A DNA stretch of 64,000 nt from Bacteroidota bacterium (GTDB lineage: Bacteria > Bacteroidota > Bacteroidia > JAHEXY01): assembly GCA_023251875.1 (NCBI GenBank), contig JAHEXY010000001.1:62001-126000 (forward strand), given 5' to 3'. Below, piece after piece: positions 1,951 to 54,752 of the stretch. A program made the position numbers and the translations under genes. Position 1 is the first letter of the stretch. The number at the start of each line of letters is the position of its first letter. A model generated the notes under the pieces. It did not search any database and was not told the DNA's origin. It saw only the letters and a program-made list of their open reading frames with translations.

Positions 1951-3432
1951 TTAAAAGTGATAGGTAATGCCACAATTTATTCCCACCGAAAATGGATACG
2001 TATGGTCATGGATTGGAGTAATGGCAGTTTTAAAGAAAGGTTCAAAATTAAAATGAACATGGGGAGTAAAGCTGTATTCAGCTCCTATTTTTATTAATGC
2101 ACCTGCGGTAAATGATTTTAATGAATCTATTTGAGTAGAAGGCAGCGTATGTAAAATGCCCTCTTTATCAACTAATGTAAGATTAGCACTTGAAAGTGTC
2201 ATATAATTTAAAGAAACACCAAGGGTTGTAGTAAGAGCAAATCTTTTATAATCAATTATTCTATACTTCAGCATGAAAGGAATTTGCAAGCAGATAAAAG
2301 ATTGTTTTAAAGATTTTAGTTGGATGGAGTCTGTGCTTGTAGAATAATTAGAGACAAAAGTACCATAAGACGTATTTATATAAATAGAATGATTTTGTTT
2401 AACATAATAAGTTTCGTAAACGGTTTGTAAAGTATCAATTTGGGTTATTAACATTGAATCTTTATAGGTTGAATATGTAATTTCATTATCTAGGTTTGAA
2501 TATTGAGCGTATTTAGAATAAGAAAGCCCAATGCCAACTGAAATACGCTTACTTATATCATAGAAAACAGCAAGGGATGATGAACAAGAGAAAGCAGGAA
2601 TCTCTTTATCCGATGTATTAGAACTGGTAGCCAGAGCCGTTATTACAGTTGTTGAGGTGTCAATAGGAAGATTTGGTAATTTTTTCAAATTTATTCTATA
2701 CGCAAATTCTGGAGTAAAAGAAGCTGAAATACTTAATCGGCTTAAAGATTTTATTACCGGTTTAGGAATAGAAAGTTGAGGGCGAGTAATAATTTGTGGT
2801 GTAATAGCATTTGGTAAAGGTGTTGGATATAAAATAGCCATTGGATGTACCTCAATCTCTTTTTCTATCTGTACAGTCTTTGTTTGCGGAAGCACATTTG
2901 AAGCCAATAAGTTTTCTAATTGGGGAGAAGATAAAACCGAATCAACAACGGTATAAGCTTTCCTGAATATATTTTTCTTTTTCTGAGGTGCTTTAAATGA
3001 AGTAAAGTGGCTAGAATTATTGTTAGCTATATTATTCTCAGATTGATTTTTGTTTAAGACATTATTCGGTGCATCAGATTTGCCTGAAACACTATTTGTA
3101 TTTACAATCTCCTCTTTTTTTTCTGAAACAACTACGGCACTATTTTTTTGTAGATTATTACTATTAATGGCCGGTTCCTTTTTAATAATTACAGAAGTAA
3201 AATTATTCACATGATTGTTTTGATGATACAATAAAAATGCAAGAGGTAATAATAAAAATACAGCACCTATTGAAGCCCATTTCCACCACAAAAATCTTTT
3301 CTTATACTTTTTTGCATCAAGCTGATCTAATTTTTGCTCAATACCCTCCCACGTCTGAAAGGAAGGTTCCTGTTCAAAATCATTCAAATTTGATTTAAAA
3401 AGATCGTCAATATTTTTTATGGGATCACTCAT
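1951..3432 (-). CDS. Membrane-anchored protein with C-terminal outer-membrane beta-barrel-like domain; putative sigma-factor partner
   Basis: This 493-residue protein begins with a soluble acidic segment (about residues 1-45), then a single transmembrane helix (WKWASIGAVFLLLPLAFLLY region, about 49-69). A long Ser/Asn/Lys-rich linker follows, and a C-terminal half (about 230-493) with alternating aromatic/hydrophobic strands typical of PorT-like or OmpA-type 8-stranded barrels, ending in an aromatic-rich strand (GITYHF). It starts 6 bases after the ECF sigma gene. In Bacteroidota, ECF sigma genes are commonly followed by a protein of this layout, and the N-terminal cytosolic tail could bind the sigma factor like an anti-sigma domain. 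That role is inference: I see no classical zinc anti-sigma motif. It may instead simply be a cell-envelope protein. Confidence 0.7.
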   Translation of the reverse strand: MSDPIKNIDDLFKSNLNDFEQEPSFQTWEGIEQKLDQLDAKKYKKRFLWWKWASIGAVFLLLPLAFLLYHQNNHVNNFTSVIIKKEPAINSNNLQKNSAVVVSEKKEEIVNTNSVSGKSDAPNNVLNKNQSENNIANNNSSHFTSFKAPQKKKNIFRKAYTVVDSVLSSPQLENLLASNVLPQTKTVQIEKEIEVHPMAILYPTPLPNAITPQIITRPQLSIPKPVIKSLSRLSISASFTPEFAYRINLKKLPNLPIDTSTTVITALATSSNTSDKEIPAFSCSSSLAVFYDISKRISVGIGLSYSKYAQYSNLDNEITYSTYKDSMLITQIDTLQTVYETYYVKQNHSIYINTSYGTFVSNYSTSTDSIQLKSLKQSFICLQIPFMLKYRIIDYKRFALTTTLGVSLNYMTLSSANLTLVDKEGILHTLPSTQIDSLKSFTAGALIKIGAEYSFTPHVHFNFEPFFKTAITPIHDHTYPFSVGINCGITYHF

Positions 3433-3438
3433 ATCTTT

Positions 3439-3987
3439 TTAGGCTACAATAGCCTTATCTATTGATTTTTTTTTAAGCATTTCTTGTAACATGGTTCTTG
3501 CTCTTGATAATTGTGATTTTGATGTTCCTTCTGAAATCTGTAACATATCTGCAATTTCTTTATGTGAATACCCTTCTATTGCATACAAGTTAAAAACCAT
3601 TTTATATCCTGCAGGTAACATTTGAATTACGTTTAATAAATCAGTAGCTGCAATTTGTTCAAAGCCATCTTCTATTGCAATAGGTTCTGTTATGTCATCA
3701 ATATTGGTTATGGCATATAGATGATTATTTTGCCGAAATCTTTCAAGTATAGTATTTACTAGTACTCTCCTTACCCAACCTTCAAATGAACCTTGATTTT
3801 TGAATTGATCTATTTTTGTAAAAACTTTTACAAAGCCATCTTGCAATAAATCTTCAGCCTCTTCTCTGTTTTTTGCATAGCGCATGCATACTCCAAACAT
3901 TTTTTTACAAAAATGTTGGTACAATGCATTTTGCGATTTGCGATCTTTTGCAAGGCAACCTTTAATAAGTAGATCCAATTCTCCCAT
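3439..3987 (-). CDS. ECF-type RNA polymerase sigma factor (sigma-70 family)
   Basis: The product directs RNA polymerase to a small stress or surface regulon. From the chosen ATG at 3987 it has 182 residues. Region 2 carries YAKNREEAEDLLQDGFVKVF, and region 4 is a helix-turn-helix near the C terminus (GYSHKEIADMLQISEGTSKS). No sigma-1.1 or region 3 is present, as expected of ECF factors. An upstream in-frame start at 4080 would add 31 residues but would abut the previous stop, and that extension does not resemble sigma-70, so 3987 is preferred. It sits between a T9SS protein gene and the barrel protein gene, probably in one operon. The operon's upstream promoter is itself ECF-like, which suggests autoregulation. 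Confidence 0.92.
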   Translation of the reverse strand: MGELDLLIKGCLAKDRKSQNALYQHFCKKMFGVCMRYAKNREEAEDLLQDGFVKVFTKIDQFKNQGSFEGWVRRVLVNTILERFRQNNHLYAITNIDDITEPIAIEDGFEQIAATDLLNVIQMLPAGYKMVFNLYAIEGYSHKEIADMLQISEGTSKSQLSRARTMLQEMLKKKSIDKAIVA

Positions 3988-4080
3988 TACAATTTTTTTC
4001 TCAATCAGGATTTCAAAGGGAGTAGATATAAAATTACATAATTTATTGTTTAAATGAAATTTAAATACCTTTATTGACAA

Positions 4081-5148
4081 TTATTCTTTAATAATTATTT
4101 TCGATAAAATTTGGTTTTGACTGGTTATATTTAAACTATAAATACCGCTTTTAAAAGATTTTAAACTATAGTTAAGGATTTCGTCATTTTGCAATGTTTT
4201 ATGATCTGATAAAACAGTATTGCCAATAGCGTCTATAAACCTAATTTCTAAGGGTTGATTGCTTATTCCGTTTAAAGCCATGCTAAGATTAGCGCTAACC
4301 GGATTTGGATATACATTTATAAAAATTTCATTATTATGATATTTAGATATTGAGGCAAGCGTTGAGTCGAGTAAACTCCCATAACTCCCTAAATATTCAA
4401 CTGAACAATCAGGGTAAATATTAAATTCCCAACTTCTACGATTAATACATCCTGATAGACAATCGCCCCATCCATAGCTATAAATTAGTTTATGAAATGT
4501 TCCACTACCTGTTAAGTATTCAAAAAAACTAATGGTGTTACCATCGCCATAAGGGTAATTAATTTCAGCCATTGAAACGCCAGGTACAAGTGATATTGAA
4601 TCAACTAAAGCATAAGAGTTGAGCATTGTGGGAAAGCTTAACTCCGCTATAAATGTATAAGGCATAAAACCTATATTAACGGAGGTAACAGTAAGTTTAT
4701 AGGTATTGATTAATGTATCTAAAATAGCATTTCCGGTTGGGTAAGTATTATTCAAAAAATAAGTGATGCTTGTATTGGTATCCATTACATCTGCAATAAT
4801 ACTTTTTGATGGAGAAGGCCATGCATGAATATTAAATATTTCAATAACGGTGTCTCTTGCTGCTAGTGAAGTTGCATTATAAACAGCCATTAATGATTTC
4901 ATTATAGTGTCTTTTTCTGCTTGCGGTATTGCAATTGAAATGGTATCGGAACTTTTTGTATCGTATAACCATTTTAGAGCTAAAAGAGCAGCATCTTCTT
5001 TATACAGTTCCTGAATCGAATCAGTAGCGGAGCATGAAGAAATAACAGTTTGTGCTTGTACTTCTAATAAAGAAAATAAAAAAAATAATGTGAGTATTGT
5101 TTTTGTCATAGAATTTAAAGTATTGATGATTAAAACTAATTTTTTCAT
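4081..5148 (-). CDS. Secreted protein with T9SS type A sorting domain, function unknown
   Basis: This 355-residue protein starts with a signal peptide (an internal Met at base 5109 gives the cleaner version, MTKTILTLFFLFSLLEVQA). It ends in a Por-type C-terminal domain with the hallmark VYPNPVSANL near residue 280 and a final KIIIKE strand, so it should be exported by Sec and then by the type IX system. The central ~240 residues hold many Tyr, Ser and Thr and a few Cys but no domain I recognise. The start at 5148 lies 24 bases downstream of an ECF-like -10 element. The gene appears to be the first in an operon with the ECF sigma factor and its barrel partner. Confidence 0.8.
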   Translation of the reverse strand: MKKLVLIINTLNSMTKTILTLFFLFSLLEVQAQTVISSCSATDSIQELYKEDAALLALKWLYDTKSSDTISIAIPQAEKDTIMKSLMAVYNATSLAARDTVIEIFNIHAWPSPSKSIIADVMDTNTSITYFLNNTYPTGNAILDTLINTYKLTVTSVNIGFMPYTFIAELSFPTMLNSYALVDSISLVPGVSMAEINYPYGDGNTISFFEYLTGSGTFHKLIYSYGWGDCLSGCINRRSWEFNIYPDCSVEYLGSYGSLLDSTLASISKYHNNEIFINVYPNPVSANLSMALNGISNQPLEIRFIDAIGNTVLSDHKTLQNDEILNYSLKSFKSGIYSLNITSQNQILSKIIIKE

Positions 5149-39576: not shown

Positions 39577-42500
39577 ATGCACACCACCAATATATTTGAT
39601 TTTTATTCTACTCATTCCATTAAGCAGATTAGTTCTGTTTTAAATTCGGATTCAAAAAACATTCACCTTAAAGGATTATCGGGTTCCATTTCTTCTGTTA
39701 TTATTTCATCTTTATTTAAAGAACATGCTCAACCTTTTTTAATTATTCTTGATGATAGAGAAACAGCTGCTTATTTTTTAAACGATCTTGAAAATTTATT
39801 GGGTCAGCAATACGTGATGTTTTTTCCTGCATCATATAAAAATGCTTTTCAGCATGATCAAATTGATAACATGAATGTGCTATTACGTTCTGAAGTCCTT
39901 AATAAAATAATTTCACATGGTAATAAATTTGTTGTAGTTACCTATCCTGAAGCATTATTGGAAAAAGTAGTTACAAAGAAAGAATTATCGCAAAATACCA
40001 TTCACATAAAAGTTGGAGAAAAAATTGCAATAGATGATTTAACCAATTTTCTTTTTGATATGGCTTTTGAAAGAAAAGATTTTGTGTACGAGCCCGGGCA
40101 ATTTTCAGTTAGAGGAGGAATTATTGATGTGTATTCATTTTCAAATGAACATCCTTATCGTATTGAGTTTTTCGAAAATGAAATAGAGTCCATTCGTTCA
40201 TTTGACCCCAGCACCCAGCTTTCAATAGAAAAATATGATCGAATAGATCTTACGCCCAATACCAATGAAAAAGCCTTGTTCGAAAAACGAGAATCATTTT
40301 TAGAGTACTTATCTAAAGATTATAAAATTTGGTGTAATGATATTGAAAACGCAAGAGAAATTATCAATAGAGAATTTGAAAAATCAGAAACAGCATATCA
40401 AAAAAGTACCGCGGTAATCAAACAACTGCCCCCAATAGAAACTTGCATTAATGGGAATGTATTTATCGAGCAGTTACAACAATTCAAAATTGTGGAGTTT
40501 GGTAAAAAATCTTACTTAACTAAAAATTATGGCACCGAAGGTTCAGATAGCCTCCCCTCTCCTTTCGGAAGAGGGGCTAGGGGTGAGGGCCTAGAATTCT
40601 CTTCGTCCCCACAACCACCCTTTCACAAAAATTTTAAGTTATTAGCAGAAAATATTGCCGCCAATGCAAAAAATGGCTATCAAAATATTATTCTTGCCAG
40701 CAACGAAAAACAAGCAGATAGAATTAGAAAAATATTTGATGATATTAACCCTGAATTGCCTTTTATAGTCATTCAATTAACCCTTCATGAAGGTTTTGTT
40801 GATCATCAAAATAAAATTACTTGCTATACCGATCATCAAATTTTTGATCGTTACCACCGCTTTAAACTAAGAGATGGTTTTAAAAATCATGAAGCATTAA
40901 CATTAAAAGAATTACAAGGTTTACAGCCAGGCGATTTTGTTACGCATATTGATCATGGCGTTGGGCGTTTTGATGGATTAGAAATATTAAACATAAGCGG
41001 AAAGCCACAAGAAGCAATTAGATTAATTTATAGAGATAGCGATATATTGTATGTAAGTATTCATTCCATTCATCGTATTTCAAAATTTTCAGGCCAAGAA
41101 GGAGTTGCACCTAAACTTAGCAAATTAGGCTCCCCTGCATGGGCAACACTTAAACAAAAAACAAAAAGTAAAGTAAAAGATATTGCCAAAGATTTAATCA
41201 AGTTATATGCACAACGCAAATCTTCCCCTGGTTTTCAGTTTTCTGCTGATACGTATTTACAAAATGAATTAGAGGCTTCTTTTATTTATGAGGATACTCC
41301 TGATCAATACAAAGCTACTGTTGATGCAAAGAAAGATATGGAATCTCCACAGCCTATGGATAGATTGGTTTGTGGTGATGTAGGTTTTGGAAAAACAGAA
41401 ATTGCTATTCGTGCAGCATTTAAAGCAGTAACAGATAGTAAGCAAGTAGGTGTATTGGTTCCAACCACTATTTTAGCTTTACAACATTATCAAACTTTTT
41501 CTGAACGCTTAAAAGATTTCCCTTGTAAGGTTGATTACATCAATCGTTTTAAATCGGCCAAAGAACAAAAAGTTGCGCTAGAAAAATTAGAGAAAGGAGA
41601 AATAGATATTTTAATTGGTACACATCGTTTAATTAGTGCCGATGTTAAGTTTAAAGATTTAGGTTTGCTTATTGTTGATGAAGAACAAAAATTTGGTGTA
41701 GCCGCAAAAGAAAAATTAAAAGCCATAAAAGTAAATGTAGATACGCTAACCCTTACCGCTACTCCCATACCAAGAACCTTGCAATTCTCTATGCTTGGCG
41801 CAAGAGATCTATCTATTATTAATACGCCTCCACCCAATCGCTTTCCCGTAGAAACACAATTGCATGTACTCAATGATGAGATTTTACGTGATGCCATTTA
41901 TTATGAAGTTTCTAGGGGTGGGCAAGTATTTTTTGTGCACAACAGAATTAATAATTTAAAAGATATTGCAGGCTTAATTCAACGCCTTTGCCCGGAAGTA
42001 AAAATTGCAACTGCGCACGGACAAATGGACGGTAAAGAATTAGAAGAAGTAATGCTTAATTTTATTGAAGGCAATTATGATATTTTGGTTTCAACTTCTA
42101 TTATTGAAGCTGGATTAGATATTTCAAATGCCAATACTATTATTATAAATAATGCACATCAATTTGGTTTAAGCGATTTGCATCAATTGCGTGGTCGTGT
42201 GGGGCGTTCGAACAAAAAAGCATTTTGTTATTTATTTTCTCCTCCGGTTTCAACATTAACTGCCGAAGCAAGGAAAAGATTAAAAACCATTGAAGAATTT
42301 TCAGATCTAGGAAGCGGTTTTAACATTGCCATGCGCGATATGGATATACGTGGCGCAGGTAATTTATTGGGAGGAGAACAAAGTGGATTCATCAATGAAA
42401 TTGGTTTTGAAACCTATCAGCGTATTTTAGAAGAGGCCATGACTGAATTAAAGGAAAATGAGTTTAAAGATTTATTTAAAGATCAATTGGCTCAAAAAAG

Positions 42501-42954
42501 AGATTTTGTAAGCGATTGCCAAATTGATACCGATCTCGAAATTTTAATTCCGAATAATTATATAACCATATCATCAGAGCGATTGTATATATACAAAGAA
42601 ATTGATGATATAGAAACTGAAGAAAAATTAAAAGAATACGAAATAAAATTGATTGATCGTTTTGGCCCAATTCCAACTTCATTAAAAGAACTCTTTAATG
42701 TTGTTCGTTTACGTTGGCTTGCAAAACATCTAGGCATCGAAAAAATTGTTTTAAAAGGAGGCAGAATGATTTGCTATTTCGTGAGCAATCCCCAGTCGGA
42801 ATATTATCAATCAGAAATTTTTAATCAAGTTTTGCAATATGTGCAAAAGCACCAACACCGCTGTAAAATGAAAGAAGTAAACGGAAAATTATCTCTTTCG
42901 TTTGGTTTAATAGGAGAAACAATGGATGTACTCAATATTTTAAACGCTATATAA
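39577..42954 (+). CDS. mfd: Transcription-repair coupling factor
   Basis: Mfd is a DNA translocase that removes stalled RNA polymerase and recruits the UvrABC system. The 1125-residue protein has a UvrB-like N terminus (FVYEPGQFSVRGGIIDVYSF), the polymerase-interaction domain (GDFVTHIDHGVGRFDGLEI), RecG-like helicase motifs (Walker A CGDVGFGKTEIA, DEEQ box, TATPIPRTL, GLDISNANT, QLRGRVGRS) and a C-terminal TRCF domain. Residues ~326-340 (SLPSPFGRGARGEG) are the translation of a GC-rich palindromic repeat inserted in frame near the end of the UvrB-like module, a region that varies between species. The insertion leaves the reading frame and all motifs intact. Confidence 0.97.
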   Translation: MHTTNIFDFYSTHSIKQISSVLNSDSKNIHLKGLSGSISSVIISSLFKEHAQPFLIILDDRETAAYFLNDLENLLGQQYVMFFPASYKNAFQHDQIDNMNVLLRSEVLNKIISHGNKFVVVTYPEALLEKVVTKKELSQNTIHIKVGEKIAIDDLTNFLFDMAFERKDFVYEPGQFSVRGGIIDVYSFSNEHPYRIEFFENEIESIRSFDPSTQLSIEKYDRIDLTPNTNEKALFEKRESFLEYLSKDYKIWCNDIENAREIINREFEKSETAYQKSTAVIKQLPPIETCINGNVFIEQLQQFKIVEFGKKSYLTKNYGTEGSDSLPSPFGRGARGEGLEFSSSPQPPFHKNFKLLAENIAANAKNGYQNIILASNEKQADRIRKIFDDINPELPFIVIQLTLHEGFVDHQNKITCYTDHQIFDRYHRFKLRDGFKNHEALTLKELQGLQPGDFVTHIDHGVGRFDGLEILNISGKPQEAIRLIYRDSDILYVSIHSIHRISKFSGQEGVAPKLSKLGSPAWATLKQKTKSKVKDIAKDLIKLYAQRKSSPGFQFSADTYLQNELEASFIYEDTPDQYKATVDAKKDMESPQPMDRLVCGDVGFGKTEIAIRAAFKAVTDSKQVGVLVPTTILALQHYQTFSERLKDFPCKVDYINRFKSAKEQKVALEKLEKGEIDILIGTHRLISADVKFKDLGLLIVDEEQKFGVAAKEKLKAIKVNVDTLTLTATPIPRTLQFSMLGARDLSIINTPPPNRFPVETQLHVLNDEILRDAIYYEVSRGGQVFFVHNRINNLKDIAGLIQRLCPEVKIATAHGQMDGKELEEVMLNFIEGNYDILVSTSIIEAGLDISNANTIIINNAHQFGLSDLHQLRGRVGRSNKKAFCYLFSPPVSTLTAEARKRLKTIEEFSDLGSGFNIAMRDMDIRGAGNLLGGEQSGFINEIGFETYQRILEEAMTELKENEFKDLFKDQLAQKRDFVSDCQIDTDLEILIPNNYITISSERLYIYKEIDDIETEEKLKEYEIKLIDRFGPIPTSLKELFNVVRLRWLAKHLGIEKIVLKGGRMICYFVSNPQSEYYQSEIFNQVLQYVQKHQHRCKMKEVNGKLSLSFGLIGETMDVLNILNAI
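40551..40590. repeat. GC-rich palindromic repeat inside mfd
   Basis: The stem CCCCTCT (40554-40560) pairs with AGAGGGG (40570-40576), followed by the tail CTAGGGGTGAGGG. This is the reverse orientation of the copy after deoC. It is translated in frame as SLPSPFGRGARGEG. Confidence 0.85.
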
Positions 42955-42956
42955 AC

Positions 42957-45900
42957 ATGATGAAATATACAATAAGAATTGTTCCTATTACCCTTGTATT
43001 GGTTATTATTTCTTTATTAGCATATAACGATATTAAAACAGATGACAATTATTGTTTGAATATTGCAAAGAATTTTCATTTGAATGAGCAATATGATTCA
43101 GCAATTTTCTACTACAACAAAATTTCTAATAAATATATAGATAGTGATCCGAAAAAATATTTAACATGTCAAAGAGGAATCGGTAATGCCTATAACCGAT
43201 TGGGTAAATTTGATGTGTCAAATGAAATTTACTTTTCGGCCTTAAGTATTGCAGAAAAAAACAAAATGGATAAGTTTATAGTTGTTCTTAAATACGATAT
43301 CGCATTAAATTACATGTCGATGGGACAATCTAATAAGGCAATAGCATTTGCACAAGAGGCTTATTTAAAGAGTAAAAACTGTTTGGTTAATCAAAATAAC
43401 GATACACTAGCAGAAATATATTCCTGTATGGGCAATTCCTATAGGAAAATTGGTTATGCAGATAGCGCAATTTATTTTCTTGAAAGATCAAATACGATTA
43501 GAAGTAATATTGTTGGCATTACTCCAAGAAAATTAGGAATGAATGTGTTTAATCTTGGTATCGTATACGAATCTATTGGCGATTATGAAAGAGCATTAGA
43601 TTTATTTCAAGAGTCCTTAAATTATTATAATAAGGATACAGCAACTAAAGAAACATCTTTTGCAAAAGTGTATGCTATGATTGCCGATGTGTATAATTAT
43701 CAGGCGCGATATCAAGATGCACTTGATTATCATTATAAAGCCTTACATATTTTTGAAAAATATTTGGGCCCCTCACATTTTTATTGCTTAAGTGTTTGTG
43801 GAAATATTGGCTTAGCGTATGAAAATTTAGATGATTATCAGATGGCTAATGATTATCTAAAAAAAACAATACGTGGACTTAAAGAAAATTATCCAACCAA
43901 TATCCTTGAAATACGAACATTTTATTATGATTTATCTAATTTGTGTTACAGAACTAAACAATATGATGCTGCAATAGCATATGTAGATACTGCTATTGCT
44001 ATGCTTTCTCAAAGTAAGGATAATAATATATTGCATTTAAGTATTTATTTAGAAGGTAAAGCCAATAATTACTTGCAAAAAGGAAACTATTCACAATCAT
44101 TAAAATTATATGAAGAGAGTCTGAAAATGCTTGTTGATAACCATTATGGTAAAAAAGATATATCTGCATTGTATGCTGATATTGGCTCATTTTATTATGA
44201 TATGAAGCAATATGATAAGGCAAATGCTTATACAGATTCTTCTTTAAATGTTCTTTACCCGGGTATCAAATTTGAACAAGTTGTATTAAATAAAGATTTT
44301 CCAATTATTTCGGAAACCGAGTTTATAAATTCACTTCAGTTAAAGGGTAAAATATTAGCCAAAGAGAAACAGGTGCTTTTGGCATTAAAAATTTCAAACA
44401 ACATGATTGGTGTTTTAGAGAAATTATTATTTAATGGAAGAGATTATTCTTTGTATAAAAAAACAATTGATTATGTGAATGAATTGGTTTCAATAATTGG
44501 AAATGATAATTTGGAAAAAGAATACAAGTACGAACTATTTGAGCTTACAGAAAAAACAAAATCAATTTATTTGAGGAGTTATTTGAGAGAAATTTCAGCA
44601 AAAGAATATGCAAATATTCCGGATAGTTTTCTTTTTCAAGAATCTACTTTAAAATCTGAAATAAGTTATTATCAAGAAAAGATTCAAGATGGTGATGTTG
44701 ATTCTGCTAAGGCTATTGAGATGCAAAATATTGTATTTAATAAAAAAAATCAATATGAATCGTTGAAAAATAATTTAGAAAAAAATTACCCAAGCTATTA
44801 TAAAATCAAATATGATTTTTCTATCCCCCAAGTAAGTGCTATTCAAAAAGAAATGGCAGCTGAAAACAGTGCTTTAGTCGAATATTTTATAAACGATAGT
44901 AGTTTATGTGTATATACCATTACAAAAGATAATTTCAATTTGAATTATCAAAAAACAGATTCGTCCTTTATTGAACTGATCAACACCTATAAAAAATGCT
45001 TATCAGATTATAATTATATGAGTGCTAATCCCCAAAAATCTTATGAAGAATATATAAATAGTTCAACTAAATTATATCAGTATTTATTTCCCGATTCAAG
45101 TAGGCAGTTAATAGAAAAATATTCCAAACTTTTTATTATTCCTGATGGAATGCTGCATTATATTTCTTTTGATGCTTTACTTACAGACCAATCCAATACT
45201 TCAAATAGAAATTACAAACAGCTTTCGTACTTAATTAACAAGCACGAAATATCTTATTTAAGTTCTTCAGAATTTTTATTCCCAACAAATAATAAACTCG
45301 AAAAATCAAAAGACAATTATTTAGGAATGGCTCCTGTGTATGATAATAACTGGCTAGCTGAATCAAAAGAAGTATCAATATATAGCAGTTTTAGAAGCGC
45401 TCCCGGTAATTTGATCAATAACTCTATTGAGGTAAAAGATGTAGCTAGTTTGTTTAATGGAAATATGTTATTAAATGAAAATGCAAGCGAGGGAGAATTT
45501 AAAAAGCAAGCAGGTAATAATAAAATTATTCATCTCGCTATGCACGCTTTAATTGATGATAAAGATCCTATGCGTTCAAAGTTGCTATTTTCCCATACAA
45601 ATGATTCTACAGAAGATGGATTTTTAAATGCATACGAATTATACAACATGAATATTAATGCCGACTTAGCTGTTTTAAGTGCATGTAATACCGGTGATGG
45701 TAAATTAGTAAAAGGAGAGGGCGTAATGAGTTTATCACGTGCATTTATGTATGCAGGTTGCCCAAGTATTGTAATGAGTTTGTGGAAAGCAGAAGATAAA
45801 TCAACAGCTTCAATTATTGTCGATTTTTTTAAACACATAAAAAATGGAGAAGAAAAGGATGTTGCACTTAGAAATGCCAAATTAAACTTTATTCAAATTG

Positions 45901-46079
45901 CCGATCCTATTACATCTAATCCTTTCTTTTGGGCAAACTTTGTAGTAGTTGGTGATAATAGTTCAATTGATACAAGCCCGAACGTGTGGTTTTGGATATC
46001 TCTTATACTAATTCTTAGTACCGGTATTATCATGGGCATTATTTTTTTTAAGAAAAAAGGCAATTTAAAATCGTTATAA
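42957..46079 (+). CDS. TPR-CHAT protein (caspase-like peptidase domain), membrane-associated
   Basis: A 1040-residue protein. It has an N-terminal membrane helix (IVPITLVLVIISLLAY), about ten tetratricopeptide-like repeats (residues ~30-440; e.g. GNAYNRLGKFDVSNEIYFSA), a coiled-coil-like linker, and a CHAT domain (about 720-1000). CHAT is a caspase-clan peptidase domain. Its catalytic pair is seen as His863 (HLAMH) and Cys910 (SACNTGDG). A second membrane helix near the C terminus (ISLILILSTGIIMGIIFF) ends in a short basic tail. In family knowledge, TPR-CHAT proteins act as activated proteases, e.g. in CRISPR-linked systems, and many in Bacteroidota have no known partner. It starts 2 bases after the mfd stop and overlaps the convergent plsC-like gene by 6 bases. 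Confidence 0.88.
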   Translation: MMKYTIRIVPITLVLVIISLLAYNDIKTDDNYCLNIAKNFHLNEQYDSAIFYYNKISNKYIDSDPKKYLTCQRGIGNAYNRLGKFDVSNEIYFSALSIAEKNKMDKFIVVLKYDIALNYMSMGQSNKAIAFAQEAYLKSKNCLVNQNNDTLAEIYSCMGNSYRKIGYADSAIYFLERSNTIRSNIVGITPRKLGMNVFNLGIVYESIGDYERALDLFQESLNYYNKDTATKETSFAKVYAMIADVYNYQARYQDALDYHYKALHIFEKYLGPSHFYCLSVCGNIGLAYENLDDYQMANDYLKKTIRGLKENYPTNILEIRTFYYDLSNLCYRTKQYDAAIAYVDTAIAMLSQSKDNNILHLSIYLEGKANNYLQKGNYSQSLKLYEESLKMLVDNHYGKKDISALYADIGSFYYDMKQYDKANAYTDSSLNVLYPGIKFEQVVLNKDFPIISETEFINSLQLKGKILAKEKQVLLALKISNNMIGVLEKLLFNGRDYSLYKKTIDYVNELVSIIGNDNLEKEYKYELFELTEKTKSIYLRSYLREISAKEYANIPDSFLFQESTLKSEISYYQEKIQDGDVDSAKAIEMQNIVFNKKNQYESLKNNLEKNYPSYYKIKYDFSIPQVSAIQKEMAAENSALVEYFINDSSLCVYTITKDNFNLNYQKTDSSFIELINTYKKCLSDYNYMSANPQKSYEEYINSSTKLYQYLFPDSSRQLIEKYSKLFIIPDGMLHYISFDALLTDQSNTSNRNYKQLSYLINKHEISYLSSSEFLFPTNNKLEKSKDNYLGMAPVYDNNWLAESKEVSIYSSFRSAPGNLINNSIEVKDVASLFNGNMLLNENASEGEFKKQAGNNKIIHLAMHALIDDKDPMRSKLLFSHTNDSTEDGFLNAYELYNMNINADLAVLSACNTGDGKLVKGEGVMSLSRAFMYAGCPSIVMSLWKAEDKSTASIIVDFFKHIKNGEEKDVALRNAKLNFIQIADPITSNPFFWANFVVVGDNSSIDTSPNVWFWISLILILSTGIIMGIIFFKKKGNLKSL

Positions 46080-46871
46080 TTTACCAATAATAGGGATTCT
46101 ATGTTTTGCTAATCGATCCATTTCAGCTTGCATGATTTGAGTTACTTCTTCATTAATTTGTTTTAAAACTTCAGGATTACTTGCATCTTCTACTGAATAT
46201 TTTTCGATAGAATAAGGAGGCAGGATACTAATAGTAATTTGAGAAGGCAAGGGTAATGAAAAATTAGGTAAGTGACCAATATGCCAACCAAAGGGAAAAG
46301 ACCAGTAAACAGGCCATGAATGCACCTTAGTCAATTTCGTTAACCCTGTTAATTCGGCTATTTTTTCTCCTGATGAAAGCACAAATAATGTTTCTCCTCC
46401 ACCAATGCCCACGATGGGTAAAATAGGGACACGGGCTTTTATCGCTAATTCAATATAGCCAGCATGTTCAAAAAAATTGATCCTATATCTGTCTTTAAAT
46501 GGTTTGGTATTTTCTCTATCTCCTCCTGGATAAACCGTAAGTGCATTTCCTGTTTCTAATGCATGAATGGCATTTTCAGGAGTAGCTTCTAATATGCCAA
46601 ATGCTTTTTCGGGTAATTTTAAAAACGCAGCTACTTCATGAAAAACGTGATGAACCAAAATATTCATGGGTACAGGTAAATTCATACTGTGGTATTTGCT
46701 CATCCACAAAAAAGTTTCGGGCATAAAATGTACGCCCAAATGATTTCCCACACCCAAAAATGGAGTGATAGGAATATTTTCAAGCCCTTTAAATTTCGCT
46801 CGAAAATAGGTTTCAAGCATTGGCAAATATAATTTAGCTGCTTTTTTTACAAAATTTGCGTCTATATCCAT
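46074..46871 (-). CDS. Lysophospholipid acyltransferase family protein (PlsC-like)
   Basis: A membrane-associated acyltransferase of the PlsC/LPLAT group, 265 residues from the ATG at 46871. The catalytic block is GNHLGVHFMPE, a variant of the HX4D motif in which the acidic residue comes later. It is followed by VYPGGDRENTKPF and VPILPIVGIGGGE. The variant is typical of the group that includes diacylglycerol acyltransferase-like and hydroxylated-lipid acyltransferases, so the acceptor is uncertain. An ATG at 46904 would add an 11-residue N terminus with no family similarity. It is divergent to the NagB/hydrolase fusion gene (90 AT-rich bases between), which may point to a shared lipid or envelope context. 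Confidence 0.82.
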   Translation of the reverse strand: MDIDANFVKKAAKLYLPMLETYFRAKFKGLENIPITPFLGVGNHLGVHFMPETFLWMSKYHSMNLPVPMNILVHHVFHEVAAFLKLPEKAFGILEATPENAIHALETGNALTVYPGGDRENTKPFKDRYRINFFEHAGYIELAIKARVPILPIVGIGGGETLFVLSSGEKIAELTGLTKLTKVHSWPVYWSFPFGWHIGHLPNFSLPLPSQITISILPPYSIEKYSVEDASNPEVLKQINEEVTQIMQAEMDRLAKHRIPIIGKL

Positions 46872-46993
46872 AGTTTTGTTTTCGGTACAAATTAAAAATA
46901 ACATAAAAAATAATGATTATATTATTATTATCAATTGTTACATTATTATCACAAATAGATTAATTGCAAAATTAACCAAAGAAGAAATTTATA

Positions 46994-48832
46994 ATGGAAA
47001 ACAACATTAAAGCATATTTTGTTACTGAACCCAAGGGTAGTGCAATTTATAAAGCTCCAAGAACATATTATTGTAAAACAAAAACAGAATTTGATGAATC
47101 GGTTGCATTAGATTTTATAGTACATGCCAATAAAATTACTGAAAATGGAGAGCGGTTTTTGGTTGGGCTCTCACACGGGCAATCACCCTCAGGTCCTTAT
47201 CAATATATATTAGATCATTTTTCTGATTTAAAACATCCTGAACTTATTCGCTATACTTTTGTTAATTCAAAATTAAAAAGACAAAGAGGATTAATTGGGG
47301 TAATGGATGCCATAGCATTTGTAAAAAAATTACTTGCTGAAAATCTTATAACCAAAGATCAAATTTTAGGTCGCAGTTTGGATAGAGATAATTTTGATAC
47401 TTATAAAGATGGCTTAAACAGGACATTATCTACGTATCTAAAAAAATTAAATAAGAATGGATTAGATTATGTTTTTTTAGCTTCAGATCCGCGTGGGCAA
47501 GTTGCCGGAATTACCAGAACTTCAAAAGCATTTGATTCAAATGATATATGTGTTGTTGTAAAAGATCATATTGATTTTGATTTAACTTTTACGCCATCAT
47601 TTTTAATGAAGTCGAAACGCATTGCATTTTTGGCAACTAAGGCAGAAAAAAGACGTCCCTTGGCTTGGCTTTATTATCGATGGGGAAAACAAAATGAAAG
47701 TCCTAGTTTTTTGAGATTTATAGATGATGTTGAAAATAGAATGACCGTTTTTATTGACGACAAAGCATTAACCTGGCCACAAATAGAATTATTTAGAGTT
47801 ACGCCTTACGGCAATACCACCATTCGTATTGATATGGCCATGCCCTATAACGAAGATCAGAAAACAAAACTACCTGTTGTTTTAATGGTTCATGGCTTTT
47901 TAGGTTTAAATACTTTTGATGCTTTACTGGCTTTTCTGCCTTCAAAAAAATATGTTGCTGCGGCCATGCATTATGGCTCTATCCCCAATGATTTGCCTAC
48001 TAAAGAATATTCGCAATTTGTGACTGAAAATATTAATACCGTAGTAACTTATTTTGGTTCTAGAGGGCATGCCGTTTATTTGTTTGATCATTCCATTGCC
48101 AATACTTATTTTTTACTAATGGATAGAGATTTAGATAAACTACCGGGTATTAAAAAATATTGTAAAGGCAGAATTTCTTCCAATCCATTTTTTGGAGAAG
48201 AGGCCAAACATGCATCCATGGGTTTTATGGACAATGTGATATTAAAATCGAATATTTCAATTATTGATAAAGTTGTGTTTCAATCTGCCAGAACTTTAAT
48301 GGTTTTTGAAACGAGAAAAGGCGTGAGAAGAATTGGAATAAATTTAACCGATTGGCTCATCAGAAGAGATTCTGCTGTTAGAGAAAGTATCTGGAAAGCG
48401 GTAAAGGAACGTATACTTTTTTTAGTGTCAAACCTTGATAATATTCCACACTTAAATAGAGTGCCCTTGGAACAAACGCTATCACGATTACCTGTAAAGG
48501 TTTTTGCCATACAAGTAAATTCTGCTTTAGATGATTCAGCAAAATTTGATAAACAAAGAGAGCTAAACGATTTTGCAAAAAATAACATTCCGGTACTTAT
48601 TTTAAAAAGTGAAAAAGATGCAGTTGCAAAATTTGTTCCTCGTATTTATGAAAACAATAAAAATGTTCAAATAATTGATGTTACCAATCACCAAGAAAAA
48701 GAACTATTCAAAGAACATCTTTTTTACATGATCCATCCTCAAACTACTATTAATATTATTGATCATTTTATTAAAGAAGTTGAAGAAAAGCGGGAGAAGA
48801 AATTAGAGGAAAATATTATTTCTAATCAATAG
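46994..48832 (+). CDS. Fusion of NagB/6-phosphogluconolactonase-like domain and alpha/beta-hydrolase-like domain
   Basis: This 612-residue protein has two parts. Residues ~1-250 resemble the NagB/6PGL isomerase fold: VGLSHGQSPSGPYQYI in place of GLATGSTP, FVNSKLKRQRG, LASDPRGQVAGI in place of the GxDGHIA loop, and LTFTPSFLMKSKRIAFLATKAEKR. Residues ~265-600 look like an alpha/beta hydrolase: VVLMVHGFLGLN (oxyanion region), VYLFDHSIANTYF (nucleophile elbow with Ser but not GxSxG), KSEKDAVAKF, and a His-rich end (NHQEKELFKEHLFYM). The key catalytic residues of NagB are not all present, so the first domain may bind rather than convert a sugar phosphate. I do not know a characterised protein with this fusion. 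Confidence 0.7.
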   Translation: MENNIKAYFVTEPKGSAIYKAPRTYYCKTKTEFDESVALDFIVHANKITENGERFLVGLSHGQSPSGPYQYILDHFSDLKHPELIRYTFVNSKLKRQRGLIGVMDAIAFVKKLLAENLITKDQILGRSLDRDNFDTYKDGLNRTLSTYLKKLNKNGLDYVFLASDPRGQVAGITRTSKAFDSNDICVVVKDHIDFDLTFTPSFLMKSKRIAFLATKAEKRRPLAWLYYRWGKQNESPSFLRFIDDVENRMTVFIDDKALTWPQIELFRVTPYGNTTIRIDMAMPYNEDQKTKLPVVLMVHGFLGLNTFDALLAFLPSKKYVAAAMHYGSIPNDLPTKEYSQFVTENINTVVTYFGSRGHAVYLFDHSIANTYFLLMDRDLDKLPGIKKYCKGRISSNPFFGEEAKHASMGFMDNVILKSNISIIDKVVFQSARTLMVFETRKGVRRIGINLTDWLIRRDSAVRESIWKAVKERILFLVSNLDNIPHLNRVPLEQTLSRLPVKVFAIQVNSALDDSAKFDKQRELNDFAKNNIPVLILKSEKDAVAKFVPRIYENNKNVQIIDVTNHQEKELFKEHLFYMIHPQTTINIIDHFIKEVEEKREKKLEENIISNQ

Positions 48833-48883: not shown

Positions 48884-51001
48884 TCATTCCGGATGATAAA
48901 TACGCTCCGCTTCTTTTAAAATAGCATCTTTATTCAATGACATTTTTTTTGTTTTTTGATGGGTATATAATTCCATTTGATCGTTATAATGTGGACTTGT
49001 TGGATTATTAGATGCACCGTATGCATTGATGGTTTCAATTTCTGTACTGTCTTTTCCAAAACGAACTAATTCGATATATGATTCTCCTGCATAAGCTTTA
49101 AACCTTCCATGTCCATGTTTATAAGGTTTTGAATACATAGCAGCCAACACATCGGGAAATCCAGAAAGCGGCATATCATCATCTCCCCTTACCAAGCGCT
49201 GCAAATTTCCTAATGGAACCAGCATAGTATTAAAAAATTTCATCAAATGTTTCTTTGCTTTTTTTACAGATTTCTCATACAATCTTTCAGAAACTTCTAT
49301 ATCGGCAATGCTATGACTATTTTTTTTATCTACTAAATTTTTTAAATAATAACCACTCAACATTACGATGCTGGCCTCAACACTTTCCATATTTGAAGTA
49401 TGGTCCCATTTTTGAATAAGACGCAAGGCATCTGCAATTTTAGGATAATCATCAGGATTCATTTCAAAAATTTCATTAATGTTTAAATTAAAAATACTTA
49501 AAATAGTATCGGGTAATTTTAAATCATATTTTAAGTTTTTAAAATCTTCAAAAGTAAATGCATCATTGTTTTTGATTAATGATTCTACTCTACACGAACG
49601 GTTATTTTTGATTAACTCATACCCCATGGTTTGATCGTAACAATCGGTCTTAAAATTTTCTTTTTCACAGGTAGCTTCAAATGGCGAGTTGTTTACATTG
49701 TAAATATATCCGCAAGATGGATTGAGCACTTGTGGTATATCTTCTAGTTTATGAAATTGAGTCCATAAAGTATTGGAGGTATTTCCGGGAAGTACTTTTC
49801 TCCAATTATAACCAACAGTGCGTTCAGGAACTAAGCCATTGCTTAAGTAATAAATGGTATCAAACTTATCGGCATAAATAATATTAAAACACGGCAGGGC
49901 TTGCATTTGCAAAGCTTTTTGAAATTCTGTGAAATTTTGTGCTTTGTTCATGTGGTACCATTGTTCGGCCCCGCGTATATCCATGTTTGCACCATAGCGA
50001 ATAGAATAAAAGGTGTTTTTATCTCCTTTTTTTGCTTTAAGCGTTGCTCCATATTTACTCCAAAAAGCTTTTTTCTCAATAGTAATGGGAATAAATCCAA
50101 ACAATTTTGTTTTCAGCTTTACTTTTCTTACTTCTAAATTGGTAGGCTCACCATCAAAATAATATTGGTATTTTTCTTTCGGATTCATTTGCAATTGGTA
50201 CACATCAATAAAATCTACAGAATTTACCGTGTGCCCCCAACCCATATTGCCATTGGTACCACAAAAGGCAGAAACTCCTCCTGGAAATAATCCCCCCAAA
50301 ATATTAAGCCCTTCTTTGCTTACCAAATGCGCTTCATACCAAGATAATGGTCCTTCGAGTGGTTGATGAGAATTAATGTCTAAAAAAGTTTCTCCATTGG
50401 CAGTTTTTGTTGAATTCATGGCAATGCCATTAGAGCCTATTACTTGCGAAAAATAAGGCTCTATTTGTCCATTATTGATTTTATTTAACACATCGTTTAG
50501 CTTGCAAATTAATGAAAACGATAACACATAAGCGGTTAGAATATCTTTTGGATTAATGGGGAAAAGCTTCTTACATGCCAGCTCTTGGGGATGAGATTGG
50601 GCATATGCATTTATGCCTTGTGCATAAGCATTTAAATATTCTTTAAATTTTGGAGAAATATCGTTTTCGTATTTTTCATCAACAACGGCTCTTGCTTTAA
50701 TAAGCTGCACTACATAATCAATCACCATTCCTTTTTTTCCTTTGTTTAGCCCTTCCATATTTTTAGCAGCTAAATAGGTTTCTTGAATGGTTTGAAAATC
50801 ATCTTCGGCATTGGCCCAAGCCAAGCCATATGCCACATCAGCATCGGTAGTGCCATAAATGTGGGGCACTCCCCATTTATCTCTAATAATAGTTACAGAA
50901 TCGGGATTAATAAGATTTGAACAAGTAGTATCTATTTCCGCTGCCTGAACAGACATAGAAAAAAATAATACATAAACGAAAAACAAATAGGGGGACTTCA
51001 T
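48884..51001 (-). CDS. Penicillin acylase family Ntn-hydrolase (PvdQ/AHL-acylase-like)
   Basis: A 705-residue exported precursor: signal peptide to about residue 20, alpha subunit with VTIIRDKWGVPHIYG and GLAWANAEDDFQT, then the beta subunit starting at the self-processing site VIG|SNGIAMNS, where Ser190 becomes the N-terminal nucleophile. Downstream, SHQPLEGPLSWYEAHLVS and GHTVNSVDFIDVYQLQM match acyl-homoserine-lactone acylases of the PvdQ type more than classical penicillin G acylase. The enzyme would hydrolyse amide bonds of acylated substrates in the periplasm or outside. Quorum-signal breakdown and use as a nutrient are both possible. It is divergent to the acyltransferase gene across a 229-base gap with a direct repeat and a hairpin. 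Confidence 0.88.
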   Translation of the reverse strand: MKSPYLFFVYVLFFSMSVQAAEIDTTCSNLINPDSVTIIRDKWGVPHIYGTTDADVAYGLAWANAEDDFQTIQETYLAAKNMEGLNKGKKGMVIDYVVQLIKARAVVDEKYENDISPKFKEYLNAYAQGINAYAQSHPQELACKKLFPINPKDILTAYVLSFSLICKLNDVLNKINNGQIEPYFSQVIGSNGIAMNSTKTANGETFLDINSHQPLEGPLSWYEAHLVSKEGLNILGGLFPGGVSAFCGTNGNMGWGHTVNSVDFIDVYQLQMNPKEKYQYYFDGEPTNLEVRKVKLKTKLFGFIPITIEKKAFWSKYGATLKAKKGDKNTFYSIRYGANMDIRGAEQWYHMNKAQNFTEFQKALQMQALPCFNIIYADKFDTIYYLSNGLVPERTVGYNWRKVLPGNTSNTLWTQFHKLEDIPQVLNPSCGYIYNVNNSPFEATCEKENFKTDCYDQTMGYELIKNNRSCRVESLIKNNDAFTFEDFKNLKYDLKLPDTILSIFNLNINEIFEMNPDDYPKIADALRLIQKWDHTSNMESVEASIVMLSGYYLKNLVDKKNSHSIADIEVSERLYEKSVKKAKKHLMKFFNTMLVPLGNLQRLVRGDDDMPLSGFPDVLAAMYSKPYKHGHGRFKAYAGESYIELVRFGKDSTEIETINAYGASNNPTSPHYNDQMELYTHQKTKKMSLNKDAILKEAERIYHPE

Positions 51002-53855: not shown

Positions 53856-53939
53856 CAAAATTCAATAGTTTTTTGAATAAGCCTAGTATTTGGTACTTTA
53901 CATTTATTAAGCAAAATCAGCAGATGTGAAGATCGGCTG
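53856..53939. repeat. ~84-bp direct repeat, right copy, overlapping the 3' end of mqnD
   Basis: Partner of 51041-51122. On the minus strand it encodes the last ~10 residues of MqnD plus about 50 bases beyond the stop. Similarity ends abruptly inside the mqnD coding sequence. Confidence 0.8.
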
Positions 53940-54752
53940 AAGTGGTTTTAAAATGAGTTTTGCTGCAATAGCTTTTTCAAACATTAATTCAATGGCTTCT
54001 TTGCCCTTTTTTCCTAAATCAATAGAGTAATTATTTACATAAAGTTCAATATGTTTTTGAATTACCTCATCACTCATTTCTTGTGAATGGGCTTTTATAA
54101 AAGCTTTGCTGGATAAAGGATTAGCAAAGGCATATTCGATACTTTTACGCAGTAAACGGTTAATTTTTCGTTGTATTTCTATTGAATATTTTTGCTTAAT
54201 GGCAATACCGCCAAGCGGAATAGGCATTTGAGTTTGCTTGTACCAATATTCTCCCAAGTCCATAATTTTAAAAAGGCCTTTGCTTTCATAAGTAAAACGG
54301 TTTTCATGAATAATCACACCGGCATCTACTTTTCCACTTAAGATAGCTTCTTCAATATCTGAAAACAACATTTCTTGTTTATTGCTTACGTTAGGATACG
54401 CAATACTTAACAAATAATTGGCAGTGGTATATTTTCCTGGAATTGCAATTAAGGAGCGATCTCCCTTCCCTTTGGGAAGGGTCGGGGATGGGCTAATAAG
54501 TAATGGCCCGCAATTATCTCCCAAAGCACTACCTGAATTTAAGAGAGCATATTTTTCAGTTAAATAAAGAAAGGCGTGAAAACTCAATTTTGTAATATCT
54601 AAAGCTTGTTCAAAAGCTTTTCTATTGAGTTCTTCCACATCAGCCATGGTAACTTTAAATTCAAAACCTTCTGTATCTATTTTATGATGAATAAGGGCAT
54701 CAAAAATAAAAGTATCGTTGGGGCAGGGTGAAAAACCAAGGGTAAAAATCAT
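53907..54752 (-). CDS. mqnD: 1,4-dihydroxy-6-naphthoate synthase (futalosine menaquinone pathway)
   Basis: MqnD converts cyclic de-hypoxanthine futalosine to 1,4-dihydroxy-6-naphthoate in the alternative menaquinone route. The 281-residue protein has the periplasmic-binding-like fold with the family start GFSPCPNDTFIFDAL, LGDNCGPLLIS, and IAIPGKYTTANYLL. Residues 87-98 (SPSPTLPKGKGD) are the in-frame translation of a GC-rich palindromic repeat. It replaces or extends the short loop between the GPLL and AIPG motifs, close to the ligand site but probably at the surface. The C terminus (FTSADFA) lies in a direct repeat that recurs 2.8 kb away, a possible integration scar. No other mqn gene is in the window. 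Confidence 0.93.
   Translation of the reverse strand: MIFTLGFSPCPNDTFIFDALIHHKIDTEGFEFKVTMADVEELNRKAFEQALDITKLSFHAFLYLTEKYALLNSGSALGDNCGPLLISPSPTLPKGKGDRSLIAIPGKYTTANYLLSIAYPNVSNKQEMLFSDIEEAILSGKVDAGVIIHENRFTYESKGLFKIMDLGEYWYKQTQMPIPLGGIAIKQKYSIEIQRKINRLLRKSIEYAFANPLSSKAFIKAHSQEMSDEVIQKHIELYVNNYSIDLGKKGKEAIELMFEKAIAAKLILKPLQPIFTSADFA
54461..54492. repeat. GC-rich palindromic repeat inside mqnD
   Basis: Plus strand CTCCCTTCCCTTTGGGAAGG and GTCGGGGATGGG: the 7-bp stem CCTTCCC (54464-54470) and GGGAAGG (54474-54480) plus the tail. On the coding strand it is translated as SPSPTLPKGKGD. It matches the outer part of the repeat after yebC. Confidence 0.85.

Follow-up and report, generated by a model that had tools for sequence, protein, structure and literature searches.

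What could a protein do that joins the fold of a pentose-phosphate or aminosugar enzyme to a hydrolase? The question is raised by one open reading frame in the window, the 64,000-nucleotide stretch of Bacteroidota DNA that was analysed, for which a preliminary description had proposed a NagB/6PGL-like domain fused to an alpha/beta-hydrolase-like domain. This pairing was borne out by profiles for the N-terminal half and by predicted folds for both halves, and the two-domain architecture is near certain. An AlphaFold model of the full protein has a mean pLDDT of 83.5 and a pTM of 0.85, and relatives keep the fusion as a single open frame. The gene and its halves are arranged as follows:

46994-48832, + strand: fusion gene, NagB/6PGL-like plus alpha/beta-hydrolase, 612 aa with an ATG start (family alignment, AlphaFold model)
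47051-47767, + strand: NagB/6PGL-fold half, residues about 20-258 (PF01182 profile, fold comparison)
47768-48829, + strand: capped alpha/beta-hydrolase half, residues about 259-612 (AlphaFold models, fold comparison)

We read the whole protein, with a probability of roughly 0.5, as a serine esterase or acyl-transferring hydrolase carrying a catalytically dead 6PGL domain that binds a phosphate-bearing ligand. On its own, the window protein scores weakly with Pfam PF01182 (E 0.005, 17.2 bits; cut-off 27), and no model in Pfam or NCBIfam matched it above cut-off. Searches of Pfam, NCBIfam, PADLOC and PDB sequences did not place the whole protein in one known single family, and a role in anti-phage defence was rejected as there was no PADLOC match. 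By eye no signal sequence can be made out, and the protein is probably soluble.

The family is coherent, with 53-67% identity among the 19 aligned members, and the fusion was found at 20 loci in genome contigs. Carriers make up 8 of 99 related genomes, its own included. At class level 18 of 395 genomes match, of which 17 are counted as carriers, G492 being left out because its match (E 8.8e-4) is a fragment of 28% identity interrupted by stops. At phylum level (395 genomes) the only fusion found by the full-length profile is the one in its own genome; seven further hits are independent reading frames, about 240-260 aa long, that read as NagB/6PGL-type proteins. A hydrolase half standing alone was found in none of the 395 phylum genomes, the C-half profile matching its own genome only. 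Among the genomes examined the family occurs only in Bacteroidota, and all named records are metagenome-assembled genomes. There was no match in plasmids, and 11 pattern stretches in viral contigs gave no confirmed relative; spread by plasmids or viruses was rejected on these grounds. Two copies, at 2337-4150 of locus L027 and at G552:C129:3668-5420 (possibly the same contig), are broken by frame changes or stops, reflecting either decay or assembly error. The fusion proteins under genus label g10 split into two well-separated tree clades (L013 and L064 in one; L060, L061 and L066 in the other), hinting at gene transfer or at an old duplication followed by loss.

In fold comparison, residues 18-261 of the predicted model align with the 6PGL structure 4tm8 with a Z of 23.5 and an rmsd of 3.0 over 229 residues. 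PF01182 matches all 19 aligned family members at E<=1 (best 3.1e-11), and its curated cut-off is exceeded by the fused protein in 7 of 12 carrier genomes, the window protein lying below it. We aligned the N-half with seven Bacteroidota 6PGL-type proteins to compare active-site motifs. The phosphate loop (LSGGSTP, here LSHGxSPxG) and the Lys of TGxxK are kept; DER is replaced by NS[KP], DGH by xGx, and the R of RIT by E, K or D. The positions concerned are:

47168-47200, + strand: phosphate-loop equivalent LSHGQSPSGPY, residues 59-69; L59, H61, G62, S64, P65, G67 and Y69 are invariant
47264-47269, + strand: N91-S92, invariant, replacing the Asp-Glu of the 6PGL DER motif in the alignment
47492-47500, + strand: RGQ, residues 167-169, replacing 6PGL DGH in the alignment; the catalytic His is replaced and its position is variable
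47639-47653, + strand: KAEKR, residues 216-220; K216 is new and invariant, K219 is the equivalent of the conserved 6PGL Lys, and R220 is invariant

The catalytic Asp of DEY and the Asp-Gly-His motif, which we take to be the NagB deaminase residues, are absent as well, the equivalent columns in the alignment to the 6PGL-type proteins being N91 and the variable 167/169. Six catalytic-site residues of 6PGL are named in PMC6165198 (T/S, T, R, H, R, K). When their numbers are mapped to family columns by motif, two of the six are kept in the fusion family (T as S64; K219); R93 is replaced by K or P, H151 by Q, R, M, L or S, and R182 by E, K or D, while the first T/S is variable.

Judged from the alignment, this pocket looks re-used rather than decayed, because invariance is commoner in its motif columns than elsewhere in the half and the new residues H61, N91, S92 and K216 are invariant in 19/19 members. 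Invariant positions account for 17 of the 45 old active-site motif columns against 34 of 192 in the remaining N-half (Fisher p 0.005), the 45 columns counted as the site being defined by motif and not shown to line the pocket; motifs of this kind are frequently conserved for structural reasons.

The C-half can be placed by predicted structure. In the full model, residues 254-600 match alpha/beta-hydrolases (21dl, Z 21.1; 4psu, Z 20.9), and the hydrolase half modelled separately (pLDDT 81.1) scores about equally against many capped hydrolases (Z 19-21), so that no subfamily can be named. This half has no Pfam or NCBIfam match above cut-off; weak Pfam matches are to Chlorophyllase (7/19 members, best 0.0044) and Abhydro_lipase (4/19, best 0.028), and a PDB sequence search with the C-half profile gave chance-level hits only. 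The predicted fold, together with the order of invariant Ser, Asp and His, identifies this half as an alpha/beta-hydrolase, with the following elements:

47891-47905, + strand: HGFLG, residues 300-304, an HGxxG of the oxyanion-hole type after a strand; H300, G301, F302 and G304 are invariant, and the role is presumed
48086-48103, + strand: DHSIAN, residues 365-370, nucleophile elbow; Ser367 is present in 19/19, with strand 361-367 followed by helix 369-378 in the model
48617-48619, + strand: Asp542, presumed triad acid, 19/19, after strand 534-538 in the model
48716-48718, + strand: His575, presumed triad base, 19/19, after strand 558-562 in the model

S367, D542, H575, H300, G301 and G304 are each conserved in 19/19 and sit at the nucleophile, acid, base and oxyanion places of the model. 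The elbow reads D-H-S-(M/I)-(G/A/S) in all 19 members and not GxSxG. The nucleophile elbow varies within the alpha/beta-hydrolase superfamily, and an elbow other than GxSxG does not bar membership. The three motifs singled out in the preliminary description, SHGQSPSGPY, DPRGQVAG and DHSIAN, lie at residues 60-69, 165-172 and 365-370. Its view that the active-site motifs of both halves are altered holds for the NagB half, where catalytic residues are lost, but not for the hydrolase triad, which is intact; there only the small residues flanking the nucleophile differ.

We propose that the C-terminal capped hydrolase carries out the chemistry. Ser367 would attack the carbonyl of an ester or thioester, helped by a relay of Asp542 and His575 and by HGFLG as the oxyanion hole; the substrate would thereby be hydrolysed or its acyl group transferred. 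The N-terminal 6PGL/NagB-fold domain would have given up both 6PGL and NagB chemistry, and its re-shaped anion pocket (the SHGxSPxGxY loop, K216/K219/R220 and the new H61, N91 and S92) may bind a small molecule or head group that carries phosphate. This domain would then either regulate the hydrolase or present the phosphorylated substrate to it. In the window's clade the substrate would most likely be an acyl (lipid) ester, because acyltransferase genes adjoin the fusion gene. A more specific and distinctly tentative version is that the dead 6PGL domain serves as a metabolite sensor or head-group clamp controlling an acyl-ester hydrolase or transferase, such that the level of a sugar-phosphate or glycerol-phosphate would set lipid turnover; if true, this would be a new type of regulated serine hydrolase.

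The preliminary description had noted that the gene is divergent to a PlsC-like acyltransferase, and this was confirmed by a PF01553 match and by conservation of the divergent neighbour in the window's clade:

46074-46904, - strand: PlsC-like acyltransferase, 276 aa, divergent neighbour (PF01553 E 5e-5, 23.5 bits, cut-off 23)
46905-46993, no strand: intergenic stretch of 89 bp between the divergent genes

A promoter and terminator scan gave nothing usable, with 15 promoter-like sites where shuffling predicts 10.7. The same divergent arrangement is seen at L009/L073 (one contig), L010, L012, L028, L062, L068, L069 and L072. A second PlsC-like family lies directly downstream of the fusion in five f4 loci (gaps of 1-126 bp) and 1.1-2.4 kb downstream in L016, L018 and L019, which belong to a distant clade; its L062 member is over the PF01553 cut-off and its L016 member under it. 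Among the 99 relatives, the first PlsC-like gene is present in 8/8 carriers and 3/91 non-carriers, a contrast (Fisher p 1e-9) that ignores relatedness. It is also present in 10 of 23 further carriers, giving 18/31 in total. On a tree of 27 rows, with L070 and L071 scored as PlsC-adjacent by inference across contig breaks, adjacency requires two changes, close to one inherited state. Inheritance thus explains much of the pattern, the 8/8 versus 3/91 figures do not count as independent evidence, and the association with PlsC is bound to clade. The fusion gene has no adjoining acyltransferase in most other clades. Its neighbours in f10 encode a thioredoxin-like protein and a DUF3089 protein, and there, as in most other clades, what lies immediately beside the fusion has no clear connection with acyl lipids.

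The strongest rival on biology is a generic esterase with no lipid tie, whose acyltransferase neighbours reflect inherited gene order. It overlaps with our preferred reading on the roles of the two halves and differs on the substrate. That PlsC adjacency is nearly confined to one clade, and that 13 of the 23 further carriers lack the PlsC-like gene, both speak for it. However, a second, different PlsC-like family occurs near the fusion gene in two separate clades, and the first is kept elsewhere in G009, G053 and G090 though not adjacent to the fusion. We judge the generic esterase possible but the less probable choice, and regard the link between the fusion and acyl lipids as a suggestive lead. 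The earlier idea of a lipid-linked sugar or polymer-related substrate is still a guess, which gains some support from the two families of PlsC-like neighbours and loses some through those same 13 carriers.

Other acyltransferase-type genes occur at these loci. In L027 a WS/DGAT gene adjoins the fusion; wax-ester or triacylglycerol storage as a general link was rejected, since PF03007 is found in 1/99 relatives and in 0/8 of the carriers among them. A stand-alone 2-oxoacid-dehydrogenase-type acyltransferase domain lies a little downstream of the fusion in two f4 loci (L062, 7258-8070; L070, 3353-4165; PF00198 tested for L062). In the fusion-free f14 genomes of L093, L094 and L095 the PlsC-like relative instead stands divergent to a gene of D-arabinono-1,4-lactone oxidase type, as identified for L093 and, through relatives, for L094 and L095.

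On mechanism, the strongest rival is a bifunctional enzyme, in which the new N-terminal site (H61, N91, S92, K216, R220) would carry out a new sugar-phosphate reaction and the C-half a second, linked step. Complete invariance of the new residues, hard to explain by simple decay, and a mean conservation of the N-half close to that of the C-half (0.69 vs 0.72) speak for such an enzyme. Against this, all three classical catalytic side chains given in PMC6165198 (His and two Arg) are gone together with the Asp-Glu pair, and besides H61 no candidate general base stands out, so we consider a second active site unlikely. Somewhat less likely still is that the hydrolase half, too, acts as a pseudoenzyme or non-catalytic partner, making the whole a two-part binding or scaffold protein. 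The usual Gly at the -2 position of the elbow, before the nucleophile, is replaced by Asp in 19/19 members, which could hinder catalysis, and the half lacks an alpha/beta-hydrolase profile match above cut-off; yet Ser, Asp, His and HGxxG are all invariant, in the correct order and placement.

The metabolic setting bears on the 6PGL function itself. Glucose-6-phosphate dehydrogenase (G6PDH, PF02781) is present in 0/12 carriers compared with 9/14 control genomes, which indicates that the N-half has no part in the oxidative pentose phosphate pathway. With G6PDH missing from 12/12 carriers and a separate PF01182 protein found in only one (G086), 6PGL service is not expected, and such a role for the fusion protein is unlikely. 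The very improbable notion that the fusion supplies the missing 6PGL of its carriers, to which the absence of another PF01182 protein in 11/12 had lent some appeal, was dropped because these genomes have no G6PDH and the protein no longer has the catalytic His or either Arg.

Both folds are known. The fusion family resembles 6-phosphogluconolactonase (PF01182; 4tm8, 3oc6, 3e7f) in the fold of residues 18-261, the phosphate-loop position, the TGxxK Lys and the PF01182 match of all 19 members, but differs in the replaced His and both Arg, the change of DER to NS[KP], the hydrolase partner and the G6PDH-free genomes. Glucosamine-6-phosphate deaminase NagB (PF01182) shares the fold (1dea, Z 21.2; 2bkv, Z 21.1), whereas its Asp and Asp-Gly-His motif are missing here. 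The C-half is similar to capped alpha/beta-hydrolases (haloalkane and fluoroacetate dehalogenases, aryl esterases, epoxide hydrolases, PhaZ 8ynv) in its fold with a helical cap (best Z 20.8, many tied) and in its nucleophile-acid-base order; it is set apart by 8-14% identity, the lack of a profile match and the D-H-S elbow. Dehalogenases use Asp as the nucleophile, whereas the presumed nucleophile here is Ser. Plant phytyl ester synthases combine a hydrolase with an acyltransferase, and a literature search found no bacterial parallel to them. In Giardia, a 6PGL domain is likewise fused to another enzyme domain in G6PD::6PGL, both domains being active in one pathway according to PMC6165198 and PMC8399836; in the present family, by contrast, a hydrolase is the partner and the 6PGL residues have been lost. 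No pairing of NagB/6PGL with an alpha/beta-hydrolase turned up among the families, structures and open-access literature searched, which is weak evidence that the pairing is new.

If our preferred reading is right, this is a further case of a pentose-phosphate or aminosugar enzyme fold being converted to a binding domain, here fused to a serine hydrolase, in uncultured Bacteroidota without G6PDH. The protein offers H61, K216 and S367 as testable residues and supplies a candidate acyltransferase partner. For annotators, PF01182 alone is insufficient to name such proteins 6-phosphogluconolactonase.

Several further features of the window were noted. A large TPR and CHAT-domain protein (42957-46079; CHAT E 9.3e-52) adjoins the PlsC-like gene; the other loci compared do not retain it next to the fusion. 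On the other side, the fusion gene is adjoined by a penicillin-amidase-family protein (48884-51001; PF01804 E 1.8e-101), for which the PvdQ-type NCBIfam model is far below cut-off. Two open reading frames contain a short, in-frame, GC-rich and partly palindromic stretch, of which a short BLAST found no second copy within the window. One, at 40531-40651, lies in an Mfd-type transcription-repair helicase (39577-42954; TRCF, UvrB_inter, CarD) and encodes LPSPFGRGARGEG; the other, at 54447-54497, lies in a menaquinone-biosynthesis-type frame (53907-54752; PF02621) and encodes SPSPTLPKGKG. Both look like small inserted hairpin elements.
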